A stretch of DNA of 46,708 nucleotides from Nitrosopumilaceae archaeon (GTDB lineage Archaea > Thermoproteota > Nitrososphaeria > Nitrososphaerales > Nitrosopumilaceae), in the NCBI GenBank assembly GCA_024644385.1, contig JAHELB010000009.1, forward strand, positions 1 through 46,708, in the 5' to 3' direction. The position numbers were made by a program, and so were the translations under genes. Position 1 is the stretch's first letter. Each line of letters begins with the position of its first letter. Below are positions 8,737 through 38,292 of this stretch, piece by piece. A model generated the notes under the pieces. The model worked only from the letters and a program-made list of their open reading frames with translations. It was not told where the DNA came from and did no database searches.

Positions 8737-8856
8737 GATAACGTACTGTAAAAAGTAAAATGGTAGAAAGAGTCATGCCTAATCCTCATTTTGTATATTT
8801 CACATTATTAAACAGCGCTTTTTAACTCAAAAATTTAAAATAACTTAATTCTAAGG

Positions 8857-8884
8857 TTTAGCTTAACCTATTTAGCTTCACCTA
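8857..8884 (+). promoter_or_regulatory. Tandem 14-bp element upstream of the suf operon (candidate iron box)
   Basis: Two directly adjacent copies, TTTAGCTTAACCTA (8857-8870) and TTTAGCTTCACCTA (8871-8884), identical at 13 of 14 positions, end 14 bp before the sufB TATA box. The first copy is part of the imperfect palindrome AGGTTTAGCTTAACCT (8855-8870). A third copy with 12 of 14 matches lies before sufC at 27991-28004. The palindrome resembles DtxR/IdeR iron boxes. Operator function is inference. Confidence 0.5.
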
Positions 8885-8898
8885 TTTTTCCTCATGTA

Positions 8899-8909
8899 TT
8901 TATAATATA
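8899..8909 (+). promoter_or_regulatory. sufB TATA box
   Basis: TTTATAATATA is centred about 24 bp before the sufB ATG at 8927, the distance expected for an archaeal promoter giving a leaderless or nearly leaderless transcript. Confidence 0.6.
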
Positions 8910-8926
8910 ACGGGGTTATTTTCTGC

Positions 8927-10327
8927 ATGGCTACTGAAAATCTTGACATGGATTATTCAAAATATGATTTTAAAGATTCAACTGACATGTATGTCCATCT
9001 CAGCAAAAAGGGGCTATCAAAAGAAACTGTAATAGCAATAAGCAAAATGAAAGATGAGCCACAATGGATGCTTGATTTTAGGTTAAGATCGTATGAAATT
9101 TTTATGAAAAAACCAATGCCAACATGGGGTGGCGATCTTAGTTTAATTGATTTTCAAAATATCTTTTATTATGCAAAGGCAACAGAAAAAACTGAAAAGA
9201 ACTGGGATGATGTTCCAGCAGATGTAAAAGCTACTTTTGATAAGCTAGGTATTCCAGAAGCTGAAAAGAAATTCCTTGCAGGTGTTGGTGCACAATATGA
9301 ATCCGAAGTTGTTTATCATAGTTTAAGAGAAGATTTAGCAAAACAAGGTGTCATGTTTTTGGATACTGATGCTGCTCTAAAAGAGCAACCAGAAATTTTT
9401 AAAAAATATTTCGGTAAAATCATTCCACCAGAAGATAACAAATTTGCTGCACTAAACAGCGCAGTATGGAGTGGTGGCTCTTTCATTTACATTCCACCTG
9501 GCGTCAAAGTAGACATGCCTCTTCAAGCATACTTTAGAATAAATGCAGAAAATATTGGACAGTTTGAAAGAACCTTGATTATTGCTGATGAAGGATCTGA
9601 AGTTCATTACATCGAGGGTTGTACCGCTCCGGTATATTCCTCAGAATCATTACACTCTGCAGTAGTTGAATTGGTTGCACACAAAGATGCTAAATTAAGA
9701 TACACTACCATTCAAAATTGGAGCAGTGATGTTTACAATCTAGTTACAAAACGTGCTTATGCCTATGAGGGTGCAACTGTAGAATGGATTGATGGAAATA
9801 TTGGCAGTAAACTTACAATGAAATATCCTGGAATCTATTTGATGGGAGAGCGTGCATATGGTGAGACACTATCCATTGCATTTGCAGGAAAAGGACAACA
9901 CCAAGATACTGGTGCAAAAATGGTTCACTTGGCACCAAATACCACCTCAAAGATTACCTCAAAATCTGTAAGCAGATTAGATGGAAGATCCACGTATCGA
10001 GGATTACTAAATGTTGCAAAGGGTGCAACCAACGTAAAGGCAACCGTAAGATGCGATGCCTTGCTACTAGATGATACCTCAAAGACTGACACTTATCCAT
10101 ACATGGAAATCAATCAAGAGGATGCTACTATTACCCATGAGGCAACTGTAGGGAAAATTGGTGATGAACAAATCTTTTACCTTATGAGTAGAGGATTTTC
10201 TGAAGAAGAAGCTCTATCATTAATTGTAAACGGATTCATGGAACCCTTTACAAAAGAATTACCAATGGAATATGCAGTAGAATTAAACCGACTCATCAAG
10301 ATAGAGATGGATGATTCAGTCGGATAG
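8927..10327 (+). CDS. sufB: Fe-S cluster scaffold subunit SufB
   Basis: Scaffold subunit of the SufBCD complex on which Fe-S clusters are built. The 466-residue protein is full length and typical: N-terminal [20 protein letters not shown], central [25 protein letters not shown]-type segment, EGCTAP with the scaffold cysteine, [11 protein letters not shown], the core beta-helix and the C-terminal [18 protein letters not shown] motif followed by the two-helix SufC-binding region. It heads the operon sufB-sufD-Rieske-sufS-sufU. The ATPase partner SufC is encoded separately at 27.2-28.0 kb on the minus strand. Confidence 0.96.
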
Positions 10328-10343
10328 TCTAAAATGATTAGCC

Positions 10344-11741
10344 ATGTCCCAAACGCTTTCTACTATTAGTCATGGACATATTGATGAAATATCAATATCC
10401 AAAAATGAACCAGATTGGTTAAAAGAATATAGACGAAATTCTCTATCTGTTTATGAAAGTCTTCCAATAGAAACATCCCCACTTTATAACAAATACACCG
10501 ATGCCAAAAAAATGGATCCACAAAAAGTTTCTATTTCATTGTCTACCAATAATACAGTTCCAAATTTTCTCCAAAAAAGATTAGGAGAATTAGAAAATGA
10601 GATTTGCATTATTCAAATCGGAACTCATATTCACAAAATCAACTTGCCCAATGAATTAAAAACAAAGGGCCTTGTAATTTCATCAATTGAAGATGCAATA
10701 AAAAATAACTCTGAATTGGTTAAAAAATCCCTTGAAGTTTCAAATTCTAAAAATGATAAATTTACAGCATTAAACAATGCAGCCTTTAATTCAGGAATTT
10801 TTATCCATATCCCAAAAAATTTAATTTTAGAAAAACCAATACATATTCTAACTTGTTTATCTGATGATGGTATATCTATAATTTCTAGAAACATTGTATT
10901 TGTCGATGAGAGCAGCAAGGGGACTATTGTCCAAGAACTCTACTCTACAAAGTCAGAAAATCAACAAGCATATCTTGAATTGTTTAACACAAATTCAGCT
11001 CCAAATTCCCACCTTGATATAACTACCCTCCAGTTGATGGATCAAAGCTCAGTTGCTTTCTCCACTAAAAGAACCGACCTTGGACAAGATGCTAAAGTTA
11101 ACTGGTATTCTGGACTGTTTGGTTCTGCATTGTCTAGATTCCAAATAGCTTACTATCTTAATGGTACAGGAGCTTCAGTAAATGATTCTGAGGTGATCTT
11201 TGGAAATAAAGAACAATCATTTGATATTCAAACCGATGTAAACCACGAAGCACCTTCAACAGAAGGAAGAGTAGTTGAAAAATCAATTCTTAGAAACAAA
11301 TCCAAATCTCTTTTCAAAGGAATGATAAGAATAAAAGAAAATGCAGCAAAATCAAATTCATTTTTGTCAGGGCGCTCTATTCTTTTGGACAAGGATGCAA
11401 AATCAGATGCCATTCCAGGATTGGAGATTTTTACTAACGATGTAAAGGCAACTCACTCTGCGTCAGTAGCGCAAATTGATGAGGAGCAAATATTCTATTT
11501 AAAAACACGATGTCTAAGCCATGAAGAGGCAGAAAGAACAATTGTTGAAGGATTCTTAGAACCACTTTCCCGGAAAATGTCTTTTCAAATTAGGGCATGG
11601 ATTGCTTATCTTATTGAATCTAAATGGGATGACAAGGAATTAACCATAAACACTGATGAAGAACTTGCAAAATTCGTTGAAATAGAAGAGACTAGGTACA
11701 ACGAAGATGCAGAGATTGAGCAACACTACAAGTATAGGTGA
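10344..11741 (+). CDS. sufD: Fe-S assembly subunit SufD
   Basis: Paralogue of SufB and heterodimer partner in SufBCD, 465 residues. The beta-helix domain and the C-terminal SASVAQIDEEQIFYLKTRCLSHEEA segment match SufD/SufB, while the N-terminal third is divergent as usual. A conserved His is retained in THSASVAQID near residue 371. It begins 16 bp after sufB; the ATG follows a purine-poor leader, so coupling is by proximity. Assignment as SufD rather than a second SufB rests on the missing EGCTAP scaffold motif. Confidence 0.93.
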   Translation: MSQTLSTISHGHIDEISISKNEPDWLKEYRRNSLSVYESLPIETSPLYNKYTDAKKMDPQKVSISLSTNNTVPNFLQKRLGELENEICIIQIGTHIHKINLPNELKTKGLVISSIEDAIKNNSELVKKSLEVSNSKNDKFTALNNAAFNSGIFIHIPKNLILEKPIHILTCLSDDGISIISRNIVFVDESSKGTIVQELYSTKSENQQAYLELFNTNSAPNSHLDITTLQLMDQSSVAFSTKRTDLGQDAKVNWYSGLFGSALSRFQIAYYLNGTGASVNDSEVIFGNKEQSFDIQTDVNHEAPSTEGRVVEKSILRNKSKSLFKGMIRIKENAAKSNSFLSGRSILLDKDAKSDAIPGLEIFTNDVKATHSASVAQIDEEQIFYLKTRCLSHEEAERTIVEGFLEPLSRKMSFQIRAWIAYLIESKWDDKELTINTDEELAKFVEIEETRYNEDAEIEQHYKYR

Positions 11742-11747
11742 TCAAAG

Positions 11748-12056
11748 GTGCCTCAATGGATTAAAGCATGTAGTTTAGAGCAAATAAAAGATGGACAGCT
11801 GTTTGGGTTTCAAAATGATGAGAAAAAAATTCTTTTGGCAAACCAAAAAGGAAAAATTTACGCTACTGACTTGATCTGTACGCATGCCGAGGCTGATTTG
11901 TCCACTGGAATTCTAAGTGAGGAAGGTGTAAGGTGTCCTTTACATCTCTCCGTTTTTAATTTACAAGATGGAAAACCGCAAAACCTTCCAGCAGAAACTC
12001 CGCTAAGAACGTACAATGTTAAAATACGTCAAAACGAGATCTACGTGGAGGTTTAG
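11748..12056 (+). CDS. Rieske-type [2Fe-2S] ferredoxin in suf operon
   Basis: Small Rieske protein of 102 residues similar to the ferredoxin components of dioxygenases and NirD. The two cluster boxes are intact: C-T-H in LICTHAEADLS near 43-45 and C-P-L-H in GVRCPLHLSVF near 62-65. The start is GTG 11748, six bases after the sufD stop, preceded by a weak AAAGGTG context. There is no membrane anchor, so it is cytosolic. Lying between sufD and sufS, it may supply electrons to cluster assembly, or simply be a substrate of it; archaeal and bacterial suf operons sometimes carry such a gene. Confidence 0.9.
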   Translation: MPQWIKACSLEQIKDGQLFGFQNDEKKILLANQKGKIYATDLICTHAEADLSTGILSEEGVRCPLHLSVFNLQDGKPQNLPAETPLRTYNVKIRQNEIYVEV

Positions 12057-12059
12057 GGT

Positions 12060-13304
12060 ATGCAAAGCGCACAAACAACTTTTGAAAATATTAGAAAAGA
12101 TTTTCCCATTTTAAAAAGAACTGTTAGAGACAATAAACCCCTTGTTTATCTAGATAATGCATCAACTACACAAAAACCTACCCAGGTGATTGAGGCAATT
12201 ACTGATTACTATAAAAATCACAATGCAAACATTCATCGGGCAGTTTATGCACTCGCAGAAGAGGCAACTGAATTATATGAAAAAACAAGAGACAAGGTTG
12301 CAGATTTTATCAATATTTCAAACAGAGAAGAAATTATTTTTGTTAGAGGTACTACTGAAGCAATTAACCTAGTGGCCTATGCATGGGGAAGAACACATGT
12401 AAAGGAAGGGGATATTATTGTTACAACTGAATACGAACATCATAGCAATATTGTTCCATGGCAATTACTGACCCAAGAAAAGGGAGCAAAATTAGAATAC
12501 ATTGGTATGGATGACAATGGAGAATTAATCCTAGAGGATCTTGACAAATTACTTGGAACTGGTAAAGTAAAACTTGTCACCTTTAGTTTAATGTCAAATG
12601 TTTTAGGAACTATTTCAGATGCCGATAAAATAATCGCAAAATGCAAAGCGGCAGGAGTTTTTACTTTAATTGATGGCGCGCAAGCAATCCCACACATGAA
12701 AGTTGATATTGAAAAATTAGACTGTGACTTTTTTGCTTTTTCTGGTCACAAAATGTTAGGTCCAACTGGCATAGGAATTTTATGGGTCAGAAAATCTATT
12801 TTGGAGACTATGAAACCTTTTCACGGCGGGGGGGATATGATAAGAGAAGTTCACAAATATGAAACAACTTGGAATGATTTGCCTTACAAGTTTGAGGCTG
12901 GAACTCCAAATATTGCAGATGTTGTCGGGCTTGGAGCAGCAATAGATTATTTGTCAAAAATAGGAATGGACAACATTAGACAGCATGAAATTGAATTAAC
13001 TTCATATGCAATAGACAAACTTTCTGATGTAAAGGGATTACATATCTATGGAACAAAAGATATCTCAAAACGCGGTGGAGTAATTTCATTTAATTTTGCA
13101 GATGTTCATCCACATGATGTGGCACAAATTATTGATGAAGAAGGAATAGCAATAAGATCTGGACATCATTGTGCTCAAGTACTCATGGAAAGACTAGACG
13201 TTTCTGCAACATCAAGAGCAAGTTTTTACATTTACAACACCAAAGAAGAAATTGACAAATTAATTAATTCATTAAATAAAGTAGCAAAGGTATTCAAATT
13301 ATGA
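12060..13304 (+). CDS. sufS: Cysteine desulfurase SufS
   Basis: PLP enzyme that takes sulfur from cysteine and hands persulfide to SufU. The 414 residues match group II desulfurases: YLDNASTTQKP near 30-40, NIHRAVYALAEEAT near 59, the PLP lysine Lys231 in FSGHKMLGPTG and the persulfide-forming Cys371 in RSGHHCAQVLM in a short loop typical of SufS. It starts three bases after the Rieske gene and overlaps sufU by 4 bp, so the desulfurase and its acceptor are translationally coupled. Confidence 0.96.
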   Translation: MQSAQTTFENIRKDFPILKRTVRDNKPLVYLDNASTTQKPTQVIEAITDYYKNHNANIHRAVYALAEEATELYEKTRDKVADFINISNREEIIFVRGTTEAINLVAYAWGRTHVKEGDIIVTTEYEHHSNIVPWQLLTQEKGAKLEYIGMDDNGELILEDLDKLLGTGKVKLVTFSLMSNVLGTISDADKIIAKCKAAGVFTLIDGAQAIPHMKVDIEKLDCDFFAFSGHKMLGPTGIGILWVRKSILETMKPFHGGGDMIREVHKYETTWNDLPYKFEAGTPNIADVVGLGAAIDYLSKIGMDNIRQHEIELTSYAIDKLSDVKGLHIYGTKDISKRGGVISFNFADVHPHDVAQIIDEEGIAIRSGHHCAQVLMERLDVSATSRASFYIYNTKEEIDKLINSLNKVAKVFKL

Positions 13305-13741
13305 GTAACGCCGATATTTATCATGAAATGATAATAGATTATTCTAGAAATCCCATTAATTATGGAAAAATCGAAGATCATGACGTAACGTTCCATGACT
13401 CAAATCCCCTGTGTGGCGATAGCATTGACATTGACATGAAAATTGATAATGACAAAATAACTGATATTAAATTTCATGGTAAAGGTTGCGCCATTTGCAT
13501 GGCTTGCTCATCAGTTTTGACCGAAATTGCAAAGGGAAAAAATATTGATGATGTGAGAAATATTTCAAAAAATGATGTTCTAGGGGAGCTTGGTCTTGAA
13601 AATCTACAAGCTGTACGAATAAAATGTGCTTTACTCTCTCTGAAAGTTCTAAAATTTGCTCTTTATTCTTATCTGGGTAAACATCTAAAAAATTCCCAAG
13701 ATGTAGATAAGTTAAAAGAAGAGGCAACAAGCTTGTACTAG
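13301..13741 (+). CDS. sufU: SufU/IscU-type sulfur acceptor
   Basis: Zinc-containing sulfurtransferase or scaffold of the U-type family, 146 residues. The three conserved cysteines are present: NPLCGDSID with the following Asp, GKGCAICMACSS, and IKCALLSLKVLK. The longer spacing between the second and third cysteines and the pairing with sufS favour SufU over IscU. It overlaps sufS by 4 bp. It accepts persulfide from SufS for SufBCD; the scaffold role often ascribed to IscU is less likely here. Confidence 0.93.
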   Translation: MSNADIYHEMIIDYSRNPINYGKIEDHDVTFHDSNPLCGDSIDIDMKIDNDKITDIKFHGKGCAICMACSSVLTEIAKGKNIDDVRNISKNDVLGELGLENLQAVRIKCALLSLKVLKFALYSYLGKHLKNSQDVDKLKEEATSLY

Positions 13742-13744
13742 TAC

Positions 13745-14092
13745 ATGAATGCATTTACTCCTTCTACTCCTATTCAAATGCAAATTAGAAAAATAATTTT
13801 TGAAAAATACAACGATGTAGAAATAAAATTTACCAATGATGAGATATTTGAATCCATAAAGCAAGGAAAAGATTTTGATCCAATGTGGATAATTGATGAT
13901 TTGGAACCTTATATTATTGATATTTGCAAATCTGGGTTAACAAGAAACATTGCCCAAAACTTTACCACAATCTGGCTAAAGCTATTTGATCCTGTAAAAA
14001 AACATCATTGCAAGTCTTGTAACCACGAAATTTATCTTGGCGAATCTGAAAAAAAAGAATGTCCAAACCCTTCTTGTAACGCACCAATTTAG
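13745..14092 (+). CDS. Hypothetical protein with C-terminal zinc ribbon
   Basis: Protein of 115 residues starting three bases after sufU. Residues 1-75 are helical and acidic with no recognised domain; the C-terminus has HHCKSCNHEIYLG and ECPNPSCNAPI, a four-cysteine zinc ribbon (C-x2-C and C-x4-C). Its position at the end of the suf operon hints at a link to Fe-S or metal handling, but this is only context. Its last 4 bp overlap the convergent pgk gene. Confidence 0.7.
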   Translation: MNAFTPSTPIQMQIRKIIFEKYNDVEIKFTNDEIFESIKQGKDFDPMWIIDDLEPYIIDICKSGLTRNIAQNFTTIWLKLFDPVKKHHCKSCNHEIYLGESEKKECPNPSCNAPI

Positions 14093-27179: not shown

Positions 27180-27950
27180 TTAAGCGGTTTGCTCTAATGC
27201 CCATTCATATCCTTCAGATTCTAATTTGTCTGCAAGTGCAGCATCTCCTGTTTTTAAGATCTGTCCTCTAGCAAAGACATGAACAAAATCAAGTTTCTTT
27301 AGGAATTTTAGGATTCTTGCATAATGGGTAATGATAATTATGGTTGCATCTTTTCCTGCCACTTCGCTTATTGCTTTTGCAACCGATTGGACCGCATCGA
27401 TGTCTAACCCTGAATCTGGTTCATCTAAAATCGAAATTTTGGGTTTTAGGACTGCCATTTGTAAAACCTCTGCTCGTTTTTTCTCCCCTCCAGAAAATCC
27501 TTCATTAAGATATCTTGAAAGAAACTCTTCTTTCAAACCAACTTTGTTCAAATTTTCTTTGAGATATTTTTGAAACTCTCTAACAGTAATGAACACTTCT
27601 CTGTCATCTCCTTGAAGTGCTTTACTAAGAGAGTTGTAGGCTGTTCTAAGAAAATGAGAAAACCCTACCCCTGAAACTTCAGTGGGGTATTGAAATCCAA
27701 GGAATAATCCTTTTTTTGCACGCTCGTCTGCTGTTAAATCTAGAATGCTTTCACCATCCAAAAGAATGTCTCCTTGGGTGACTTCGTATTTGGGGTGTGC
27801 AAGTAAAGTGTAAGCTAGTGTACTTTTTCCAGAACCGTTTGGTCCCATTATAGCATGTACTTCTCCAGGTCCTGTTTTCAGATTAACTCCTTTTAGAATT
27901 TCCTTTCCTTCTCTTTTCACATGCAGGTCTTTGATTTCTAGTACTGCCAT
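27180..27950 (-). CDS. sufC: Fe-S assembly ATPase SufC
   Basis: ABC-type ATPase that energises the SufBCD complex, 256 residues. It has Walker A GPNGSGKST near 35-43, the Q-loop GFQYPTEVSGVGF, the ABC signature GFSGGEKKR, Walker B ISILDEPDSGLD and the switch His in IIIITHYARIL. It is separated from sufBD by about 15 kb, which is unusual compared with bacterial suf operons, but it carries the same upstream 14-bp element. It starts at ATG 27950 with a TATA box (TATTAAATATAG on the minus strand, about 27970-27981) 26 bp upstream. Confidence 0.96.
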   Translation of the reverse strand: MAVLEIKDLHVKREGKEILKGVNLKTGPGEVHAIMGPNGSGKSTLAYTLLAHPKYEVTQGDILLDGESILDLTADERAKKGLFLGFQYPTEVSGVGFSHFLRTAYNSLSKALQGDDREVFITVREFQKYLKENLNKVGLKEEFLSRYLNEGFSGGEKKRAEVLQMAVLKPKISILDEPDSGLDIDAVQSVAKAISEVAGKDATIIIITHYARILKFLKKLDFVHVFARGQILKTGDAALADKLESEGYEWALEQTA

Positions 27951-27990
27951 ATTTCGTTTTGTTTGGTTTCTATATTTAATACCGACGAAA

Positions 27991-28004
27991 TTTAGCTGAT
28001 CCTA
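27991..28004. promoter_or_regulatory. suf-type 14-bp element before sufC
   Basis: TTTAGCTGATCCTA on the plus strand matches the sufB elements at 12 of 14 positions and lies about 10 bp upstream of the sufC TATA box. It is part of TTAG-ctgatc-CTAA, an inverted repeat. On the minus strand it reads TTAGGATCAGCTAA, which resembles half of a DtxR/IdeR iron box. Orientation relative to the gene is opposite to that at sufB. Confidence 0.45.
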
Positions 28005-28022
28005 AGGTAATTTTAATAAAAT

Positions 28023-28035
28023 GGGGGGGGGGGGG
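28023..28035. repeat. 13-bp poly-G/poly-C tract
   Basis: Thirteen consecutive G on the plus strand, beginning one base after the tfb stop codon when read on the minus strand and about 73-85 bp upstream of the sufC start. Such a run is exceptional in DNA this AT-rich and is prone to slipped-strand length change. Confidence 0.9.
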
Positions 28036-28036
28036 T

Positions 28037-28993
28037 TTAATTTTTGGCCAGTGAGGGTCTCAAAGCAATTTTGAGTTTGTAACCGGTAAGAATCTCTTTA
28101 CATCTATTTCTGATTGTGACCTCAGTGACGCCTGCAATACTGGATACATCTCTTTGAAGGATGCTTTGACCCAATAAAACTGAGGCAACATACAGATATG
28201 CTGCTGCAATTCCATTAGGTGCTTTTCCATCAGTAATGCTACTGTCTTTGGTTTTTTCGGCAATTTCCAAGGCTAGTCGTTCCACTCTAACCTCAGTTTG
28301 GGTCATGTTTGCAATCTTTGAGATGTATTTGTCCATAGTAACTATTGGGGCAGTAATTTGACCCATTTCCATTACCATGGTTCTGTAATATTTTGCTGCA
28401 AGTTTTGTTTTTGATTTGACATCCTTTGATATACAAATTCCACGAACAATTTCTTCAAGTGATCTTACCACATGACATTGTTTACATGCCATGTAAATCG
28501 TAGCTGCAGTAATACTTGCTACTGATTTTCCTTTCACCTCGATATGTCCATCCAAATTTCTATATATTATGGAAGCAGTTTCCAAAACATTTTTTGAAAG
28601 AGACAATCCATTACACGTTTCACCCATTTTAGATAAAACATTGGCTAATCTCCTCTCTCGTGGTGAGGAAACTCGAACTCTTTGTTGCCATTTTCTGAGA
28701 TTGTGCATCTGGTTTACAACTTCATGGTTTATGGATTTTCCACTAAAGTCTTTTGAACTGATTGAAATCTCAGTAGCTATTCCCAAATCATGTTGAGAAT
28801 AAGATGTTTGTCCTGTTGCTCTTGCAAGCTTCATTTTGTCTTCAAGATTCGAACTTTTTGTTTCTGGACCAGAATCTGCTATTTGGTCTGCGACAACTAC
28901 GCCGCAACCCGAGCAAATTATTTCACCATTCTGAATATCATCTACTAACGATGATTTGCATTCAGGACAGCTTTGGGGTTCTAGAATATTCAT
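28037..28993 (-). CDS. tfb: Transcription initiation factor B (TFB)
   Basis: Archaeal TFIIB of 318 residues that recruits RNA polymerase to TBP-bound promoters. It has the N-terminal zinc ribbon (CPECKSSLVDD and ICSGCGVVV, near residues 8-34), a B-reader/linker with QTSYSQHDLGIATEI, and two cyclin repeats: first around KSVASITAATIYMACKQCHV, second around KAPNGIAAAYLYVASVLLG ending in the HTH-like VTEVTIRNRCKEI that contacts the BRE. It overlaps gar1 by 4 bp. The C13 tract follows the stop codon by one base. Thaumarchaea usually have several TFBs. Confidence 0.95.
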   Translation of the reverse strand: MNILEPQSCPECKSSLVDDIQNGEIICSGCGVVVADQIADSGPETKSSNLEDKMKLARATGQTSYSQHDLGIATEISISSKDFSGKSINHEVVNQMHNLRKWQQRVRVSSPRERRLANVLSKMGETCNGLSLSKNVLETASIIYRNLDGHIEVKGKSVASITAATIYMACKQCHVVRSLEEIVRGICISKDVKSKTKLAAKYYRTMVMEMGQITAPIVTMDKYISKIANMTQTEVRVERLALEIAEKTKDSSITDGKAPNGIAAAYLYVASVLLGQSILQRDVSSIAGVTEVTIRNRCKEILTGYKLKIALRPSLAKN

Positions 28994-36852: not shown

Positions 36853-36958
36853 ATTCCTAACCTTTGTAATCAGATTGTTTAATAAGTCATAATGATTTTC
36901 AGAGTTGGTTTTTTTATTCCTAATTCAAATATACTGTTCTTTGACTCTATTCTGTAAC

Positions 36959-37765
36959 TTGTCAAAATCTGAATCTAATATTTCTAGTCTTCCTCTTAGC
37001 GAATTGTTAGGATCTTCACTTACCTCAACTCCTTGTGTAAATGTTAGAAAAAATGCCAAAGTTCGACTTGTAGCAGGAATGCTAGTTCAGTATCTTGAAT
37101 CTTTTACTGATTCTGTGGTAGTTCGGGATGCAACCAAACCCATAGGAGTAATCGGAGGAAGGGAAATAATCCAAGGCGTATTCAAAAATCCTACTTCAGA
37201 TTTTTTCGAAACGAAATTTGTTGAAGAAATCTCTGATAATAGGCTATGTGTAGTAACTTCTGAATCTAGCCTTAAAGAATTAATTTCTCAATGGAGAAGT
37301 GTAGGAAGGGCATTTGCCATAATTAATGTTGGAAATGATGATTATTCGGTGATTTCTGCAAAAAAACTTCTCGAAATCGGAATGAACGATGAATCTGATT
37401 TTCATATTTCCAAAATTCCAAAGAAGAAAATTGTGACCATTGACAATGAGGCTAATTTTGGAGATGTAATTAAACTAATGTTGGAAAATAAGACAAGGAA
37501 AATATTGCTTGAAGGGACAAATCAATTTATCAACGATAGAATAATTATTGAAACAATTGAAAATTTTAATTTTCTACTGGGAAGAAATAATTTTTTAGAT
37601 ATTCCGATAAACATTGTCTCTCCAGCAGAAGCAATTACTATTTCCAAGGATTTAACACTCTCAGAGATTTCAAAAACAATGTACCAAATGTCCCAACCCT
37701 TGATTATTCATGATGATCGTGTGATAAGCCCTTGGGATATCTGTGTGACTTTGGGGACAATTTAG
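36959..37765 (+). CDS. CBS-domain protein
   Basis: Protein of 268 residues with repeated CBS-like units: ESFTDSVVVRDATKPIGVIG, VVTSESSLKELISQWRS and AFAIINVGNDDYSVISAKKL in the first half, then VTIDNEANFGDVIKLMLENK, TISKDLTLSEISKTMYQMSQ and LIIHDDRVISPWDICVTLG. Four degenerate CBS motifs probably bind adenine nucleotides. The start is put at TTG 36959 because AAATATACT (36928-36936) is 27 bp upstream; the longer frame from TTG 36905 adds an unlikely hydrophobic tail. No catalytic domain is attached. It is divergent from the HD-GNAT gene. Confidence 0.7.
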   Translation: MSKSESNISSLPLSELLGSSLTSTPCVNVRKNAKVRLVAGMLVQYLESFTDSVVVRDATKPIGVIGGREIIQGVFKNPTSDFFETKFVEEISDNRLCVVTSESSLKELISQWRSVGRAFAIINVGNDDYSVISAKKLLEIGMNDESDFHISKIPKKKIVTIDNEANFGDVIKLMLENKTRKILLEGTNQFINDRIIIETIENFNFLLGRNNFLDIPINIVSPAEAITISKDLTLSEISKTMYQMSQPLIIHDDRVISPWDICVTLGTI

Positions 37766-37881
37766 CAAATCCTAAAATATTTTTCACTATACTGATGACT
37801 TGTTAATTAAGTAAATTCCATTTTTGAAAATTTTCCATAAATAATTTATACAATGCGAGAATTAATAAATTTAAGAACAAA

Positions 37882-38292
37882 ATGACGACCTTAAAAATTA
37901 TGGAAATAGAAGGCATTGGACCTTCCTATGCAGGAAAACTTGAAGCAGTTGGAATGCATTCTTCAGATGACTTGCTAGAAAATGGAAAAACACCTCAAGG
38001 GAGAAAAGACTTGGTTGAAAAAACTGGAATATCTTCAAAATTAATTCTAGAGTGGATAAATCTTTGTGATTTAATTAGAATAAAAGGTGTTGGGGAAGAA
38101 TACTCTGATCTTCTAGAAGAAGCAGGTGTTGATACAGTAGTCGAACTTTCTAATCGAAATGCAGAGAACCTGCAAAAAAAAATGCAAGAAGTAAATGAAG
38201 AAAAAAACCTAGTTCGAAAAACTCCTACCATTGACCAAGTAACGGCTTGGGTAGAAGAAGCAAAGACTCTTCCTAGAGTAATAGAATACTAA
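37882..38292 (+). CDS. DUF4332 helix-hairpin-helix protein
   Basis: Protein of 136 residues made of two tandem helix-hairpin-helix modules: IEGIGPSYAGKLEAVGMHSS near 9-28 and IKGVGEEYSDLLEEAGVDTV near 67-86, each with the GxGxxYxxxLxxxG pattern of DUF4332, and an end with VRKTPTIDQVTAWVEEAKTL. Such modules often bind DNA without sequence specificity. A TATA-like AATTTATA lies about 35 bp upstream of the ATG, so there is a leader of about 10 nt. The protein is acidic; the partner is unknown. Confidence 0.82.
   Translation: MTTLKIMEIEGIGPSYAGKLEAVGMHSSDDLLENGKTPQGRKDLVEKTGISSKLILEWINLCDLIRIKGVGEEYSDLLEEAGVDTVVELSNRNAENLQKKMQEVNEEKNLVRKTPTIDQVTAWVEEAKTLPRVIEY

Follow-up and report, generated by a model that had tools for sequence, protein, structure and literature searches.

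A conserved inverted-repeat element at the split suf promoters of Nitrosopumilaceae probably marks an iron/iron-sulfur control circuit

Genes and promoter elements of the two suf loci

The window analysed here is a 46,708-nucleotide stretch of DNA from a Nitrosopumilaceae archaeon, and it carries suf genes at two loci. One cluster on the plus strand consists of sufB (8927 to 10327; over the TIGR01980 cut-off), sufD with the SufBD core (10344 to 11741; just over the TIGR01981 cut-off), and three genes that encode a Rieske-type [2Fe-2S] ferredoxin (11748 to 12056), the cysteine desulfurase SufS (12060 to 13304) and the SufU/NifU_N scaffold (13301 to 13741). The cluster ends with a 115-aa ORF that matches no family (13745 to 14092). 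sufC (27180 to 27950; over the TIGR01978 cut-off) lies 17–19 kb away on the minus strand. Directly upstream of sufC is a TFB gene (28037 to 28993, minus strand), which is distinct from the operator-bearing TFB paralog described below. None of the genes in the suf cluster is an Rrf2 or SufR-like regulator.

Two putative operator sites, recognised by sequence and conservation, precede sufB on the plus strand. Site 1, TTTAGCTTAACCTA (8857 to 8870), and site 2, TTTAGCTTCACCTA (8871 to 8884), are arranged head to tail, and the pair ends 14 bp before TTTATAAT (8899 to 8906) in the sufB TATA box, TATTTATAAT (8897 to 8906), which is kept in all complete promoters of the genus. The preliminary description had reported both elements with exactly these sequences and set their start at 8855, 2 bp too early. 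It had also reported a third 14-bp copy near the sufC TATA box, and this copy, TTTAGCTGATCCTA, is present at 27991 to 28004, 9 bp beyond the TATA box (27971 to 27981, minus strand). As sufC is on the minus strand, the copy is inverted relative to its own gene. In gene orientation the putative sufC operator, likewise based on sequence and conservation, reads CTTAGGATCAGCTAAA (27991 to 28006, minus strand). Upstream of sufC, a run of about 14 G occupies 28022 to 28036 on the plus strand; in several relatives the G run is followed by CCTCTTTTCATTTTATT (gene orientation).

A second palindrome, ATAACGGGGTTAT (8907 to 8919, plus strand), lies directly downstream of the sufB TATA box and is kept order-wide. 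The form ATAAC-N3/4-GTTAT was found directly after the sufB TATA box at 24 of 34 loci (L068–L106, L320–L348), among them loci from further families in the order. Its conservation is deeper than that of the tandem 14-bp element, and it may be an independent suf operator. A related sequence, ATAACGCTGTT, is present at ssuA.

Conservation and extent of the element

Matches to the 14-mer were counted in the window and in the source genome. The window contained 10 matches at up to 3 mismatches against 7.9 expected, and the source genome contained 23 at up to 2 mismatches, where the reversed control gave 57. As these counts are not in excess, frequency alone proves nothing and the window cannot decide. 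One more relaxed match in the window, at 37761 to 37776, is a perfect TTTAGCAAATCCTAAA palindrome, situated at the end of the ORF at 36905 to 37765 and 105 bp before the ORF at 37882 to 38292.

Phylogeny, not frequency, lifts the element above chance. The sufB promoters were picked by using the SufB protein, not the motif, as the anchor. The layout TTTAGCTNNNSCTA.TTTAGCTNNNSCTA.TTTTT..TATTTATAATATAACG occurred in nearly all of the nine readable promoters of the genus, with one or two letters changed in a few, and the sequences further upstream were unrelated among the nine members. Pairwise identity among them was 96% at the half-site positions of both sufB sites, 45% and 55% in the four spacer bases of site 1 and site 2, respectively, 37% in the 60 bp upstream of the sites, and 93% in the 40 bp downstream including the TATA box. 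For sufC, nine genus members were found, and each of them carries TTAGGATYAGCTAAA.

In a family-wide pattern search, 65 of 121 genomes contained the tandem pair, generally as a single copy, and the control had no match in any genome. All 29 scorable sufB promoters carried a site, compared with a mean of 0.12 and a maximum of 2 in shuffles and none with the reversed-pattern control. Sites upstream of sufB occur in named Nitrosopumilus, Nitrosarchaeum, Nitrosopelagicus, Cenarchaeum, Nitrosotenuis and Nitrosotalea genomes, with varied spacing in some. The sufC site was found in 14 of 20 genera by the strict pattern, and in up to 18 when four near matches identified by eye are included. Thus, the two features on which the preliminary description had staked its claim, conservation before suf genes in related species and placement at promoters, were both found.

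We next define the unit that is conserved. The consensus of 54 collected sites was TTAGCT-NNN-[C/G]CTA-[A/T/C], that is, TTAGCT-NNN-SCTA(A), in which the fixed positions are inflated because the sites were chosen partly by pattern. The conserved unit consists of inverted NCTAA half-sites around four free bases, giving the palindrome TTAGCTNNNSCTAA. The AGG-extended palindrome AGGTTTAGCTTAACCT (8854 to 8869) was rejected as the true unit, since its AGG is not kept in relatives and represents a local extension. The 16-bp palindrome TTTAGSNNNNSCTAAA was rejected on its counts, which were below the control at 2 mismatches.

Promoters that share the element and its likeness to DtxR/IdeR boxes

Across 12 genomes, TTAGCTNNNSCTA gave 119 matches against 37 for the control. 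The element recurred at orthologous promoters of sufB, sufC, tusA, an SsuA-type transporter, a TFB paralog, phnDCE, an FTR1 permease and nirK. Of the nine strict matches in the source genome, seven are at promoters that also turn up among the matches of other species; its phnD site differs from the 14-mer at two positions. The products were assigned as follows. TusA belongs to PF01206. The SsuA-family substrate-binding protein scored over the TIGR01728 cut-off and has ABC partners; its gene is divergent from an argG-like gene. The PhnD-like protein matched PF12974 and scored over the TIGR01098 cut-off, with PhnC/PhnE-type partners (the PhnE equivalog over cut-off). FTR1 is an iron permease (PF03239), found with a site directly downstream of the TATA box in genus g15, and the nirK product is a copper nitrite reductase-like multicopper oxidase with Cu-oxidase domains, whose best NCBIfam match, TIGR02376, was below the cut-off.

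Several further features were noted at these loci. The FTR1 genes (L239, L248) and phnD genes (L018, L265, L268, L274) have a common place beside an orthologous HTH gene, with the operator at the same position. The operator is borne by the promoter of the TFB paralog at L003 (G000:C13), L240, L249, L252, L264, L266 and L279. An inverted repeat, ATTCTA-N5-7-TAGAAT, was observed upstream of phnD and TFB promoters (L239, L240, L265, L274) and also in Nitrosotalea-type sufB upstream regions (L092). In a Nitrosotalea genome (L377, G017:C1:989154), TTAGGCTTGCCTAA separates a divergent HTH gene from the gene for a ZIP-like transporter, whose score falls slightly short of the Pfam cut-off.

The position of the site relative to the TATA box falls into two geometries. 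With promoters aligned at the start codon, the site ends about 9–14 bp upstream of the TATA box at sufB, sufC, tusA and ssuA. At phnD and FTR1 the site follows a few bases after TTTAAATA, and at nirK it sits immediately upstream of TTATAAATA. Archaeal regulators usually activate transcription from sites upstream of the BRE and usually repress it from sites at or downstream of the TATA box. The simplest reading of the two geometries would be one regulator with two outputs.

The preliminary description had likened the palindrome to a DtxR/IdeR-type iron box. Two boxes are defined by IdeR structures, one of 19 bp, TTAGGTTAGSCTAACCTAA, and one of 14 bp for a single dimer, TTAGGNNNNCCTAA (PMC8464063). 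The likeness stands for the spacing, as TTAGC-N4-SCTA(A) has inverted NCTAA-type half-sites 4 bp apart within 14 bp, as in the one-dimer box. It does not extend to AGGTTTAGCTTAACCT, the sequence cited for it, which is only local, or to the 19-bp double box for two dimers, as the copies are tandem at 14 bp (sufB) or single. In Nitrosopumilaceae one half is GCTAA, so that TTAGC replaces TTAGG; CCTAA in both halves was found only in three Nitrososphaeraceae, at sufB and at other genes. The canonical TTAGGNNNNCCTAA was not enriched in Nitrosopumilaceae genomes (0–3 matches against 5–10 in the control), and we rejected it as the element of this family because it is rare and below control; occurrences such as those at C15:10101 and C51:5991 have no evident regulon gene.

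In Nitrososphaeraceae, the exact 14-bp box was found upstream of sufB in three genomes, each of a different species, with diverged surroundings. The three species also have a canonical box upstream of a large FTR1 permease gene, and a pair of boxes 17 bp apart before a two-gene cluster whose second gene encodes a DtxR-family protein. One genome has a second FTR1 permease gene with a canonical box. Genome-wide, the canonical box was not enriched in Nitrososphaeraceae (6–8 matches against 11–15 in the control). The placement of these boxes speaks for an iron circuit of the DtxR type in this order, to which sufB would be joined. Iron-uptake genes are among the linked genes, namely FTR1 in g15 and, in Nitrososphaeraceae, the two FTR1 genes preceded by canonical boxes.

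The element thus shares with DtxR/IdeR boxes its length of 14 bp, NCTAA-type inverted half-sites, a free 4-bp spacer and linked iron permease genes, and in the sister family canonical boxes stand at sufB and upstream of a dtxR-containing gene pair. It differs in having TTAGC(T) for TTAGG in one half, in its head-to-tail repetition at sufB, with 14 bp from one box to the next rather than the 5-bp offset of the double box, in its activator-like placement at suf, and in the inclusion of sulfur, TFB and nirK genes. Leyn and Rodionov reportedly described in 2015 palindromic motifs in archaeal DtxR regulons (FetR/MntR/ZntR), mostly before metal transporters; the motif here is palindromic as well. 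In bacterial SUF control by IscR, SufR, Fur or RisR, Fe-S assembly genes are under a dedicated regulator, as is proposed here, but those regulators belong to other protein families and use other operators. The promoter motifs of Nitrososphaera viennensis under Cu limitation, TTCSGSMTTTGWACYANT and an A/T-rich motif (PMC7785015), are also conserved, metal-linked thaumarchaeal promoter motifs, but their sequences and genes are unrelated to the suf element.

Candidate regulators and models of control

A DtxR-family protein is encoded in 119 of 121 family genomes. The source genome encodes two, the MntR-like DtxR-A (C69) and the IdeR/SloR-like DtxR-B (C46). The best PDB match of the C69 protein is MntR, and its alignment shows the MntR metal-ligand pattern. 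The C46 gene is preceded by a TrmB-like gene. G053, a genome in one contig that retains the tandem sites, lacks DtxR-B, and this weakens DtxR-B as the sole regulator. DtxR-B was also not found in four g15 genomes with tandem sites (G084, G099, G104, G109), and DtxR-A is missing from some drafts, such as G024, where the sufC site is present. Neither paralog was found in every site-bearing genome, and each is a candidate binder. In Nitrosopumilaceae, neither of the dtxR genes showed a site upstream; in Nitrososphaeraceae the box stands in front of the gene preceding dtxR. A change from T to R at position 37 of DtxR-B tracks the switch from TTAGG to TTAGC, but g15 genomes with only DtxR-A, which has S at this position, also keep TTAGC sites, so the change is a lead only. 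Additional MntR-like paralogs, in which the recognition helix is altered (RPPSVTKM), were observed at L208 and L218 in G053 and at L378 in G038; in G053 they occur where DtxR-B is missing, and G038 has both.

The shared motif probably marks a previously undescribed iron/iron-sulfur control circuit in Nitrosopumilaceae. We consider it fairly likely that the elements serve as operators for a single dimeric metalloregulator of DtxR/IdeR/MntR type, which would coordinate Fe-S assembly with iron/metal and sulfur supply by activating from sites upstream of the TATA box and repressing from sites downstream of it. Which protein binds, with which metal, and whether it activates or represses are inferences here. 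A protein bound just upstream of the TATA box/BRE, at the two sufB sites, sufC, tusA and the SsuA-type transporter, would most likely activate transcription. Bound directly downstream of the TATA box (phnDCE, FTR1) or abutting its upstream side (nirK), it would most likely repress. In metal-replete cells, uptake would then be shut and Fe-S assembly switched on, and through the common site sufBDSU and the distant sufC would respond together. The preliminary description had proposed a shared iron- or Fe-S-responsive regulon for the split suf genes. The conserved cis-element at both loci and the link to FTR1 support a shared regulon; iron is the likely signal rather than an established one, because the tusA, SsuA-type, NirK, phosphonate-type and TFB genes share the element. 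We counted nirK, ssuA and tfb, which are not classic iron genes, against the DtxR model.

A possible but less favoured reader of the same operator is another winged-helix dimer of the TrmB/ArsR/MarR-like kind, for example the HTH protein encoded beside phnD/FTR1, sensing Fe-S, redox or sulfur. Small HTH genes adjoin the phnD/FTR1 locus and the box-bearing ZIP-type gene of Nitrosotalea, TTAGC is not a DtxR half-site, and the patchy distribution of both DtxR paralogs would fit such a reader. The exact DtxR half-site spacing argues against it, as do the canonical boxes that the sister family has at sufB, at FTR1 and at the gene pair that includes dtxR. It is rather unlikely that the regulon answers to sulfur or cysteine supply instead of iron, with a protein that senses sulfur limitation and coordinates SsuA-type uptake, TusA and SUF. 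The tusA, SsuA-family transporter, sufB and sufC promoters do have a common upstream geometry, but FTR1 iron permeases carry sites in two families, and the nirK and phnDCE sites have no obvious sulfur role. We regard as quite improbable a class-specific basal promoter, in which the element would not be a regulator site but would serve one particular TFB/TBP pair as an upstream promoter element. In most of the genomes examined, the promoter of a TFB paralog itself contains the motif, and the suf and ssuA sites adjoin the BRE/TATA box; against this, the motif lies downstream of the TATA box at phnDCE/FTR1, occurs in both orientations, and consists of inverted half-sites separated by a free spacer. 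Similarity by chance, or young promoters conserved without selection, would suit the window and source-genome counts, which alone are not above expectation, but this reading is refuted by family-wide conservation despite divergent flanks and spacer and by the absence of control matches.

Extending the metalloregulator model, a single variant DtxR-type operator might run an iron/Fe-S/sulfur regulon across ammonia-oxidising archaea, with its effect set by position: split SUF and a dedicated TFB on, transporters off. PhnDCE would then be the missing iron importer of Nitrosopumilus maritimus, as it takes the place of the g15 FTR1, with the same HTH neighbour and operator position. We put this extension forward as speculative and hold it to be doubtful in its full form.

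In the ocean, ammonia-oxidising archaea rank with the most abundant cells. They may be iron-limited in surface waters, and for N. maritimus no iron-specific membrane transporter has been reported, with reductive uptake as a probable route (PMC6776035). Our literature search returned no iron or Fe-S regulon for ammonia-oxidising archaea; part of the motif may have been mentioned before. The element provides an operator that is defined and can be tested, together with a short list of genes and two candidate regulators. It flags phnDCE as a possible iron importer in N. maritimus, and suggests how the separated suf loci stay coordinated.
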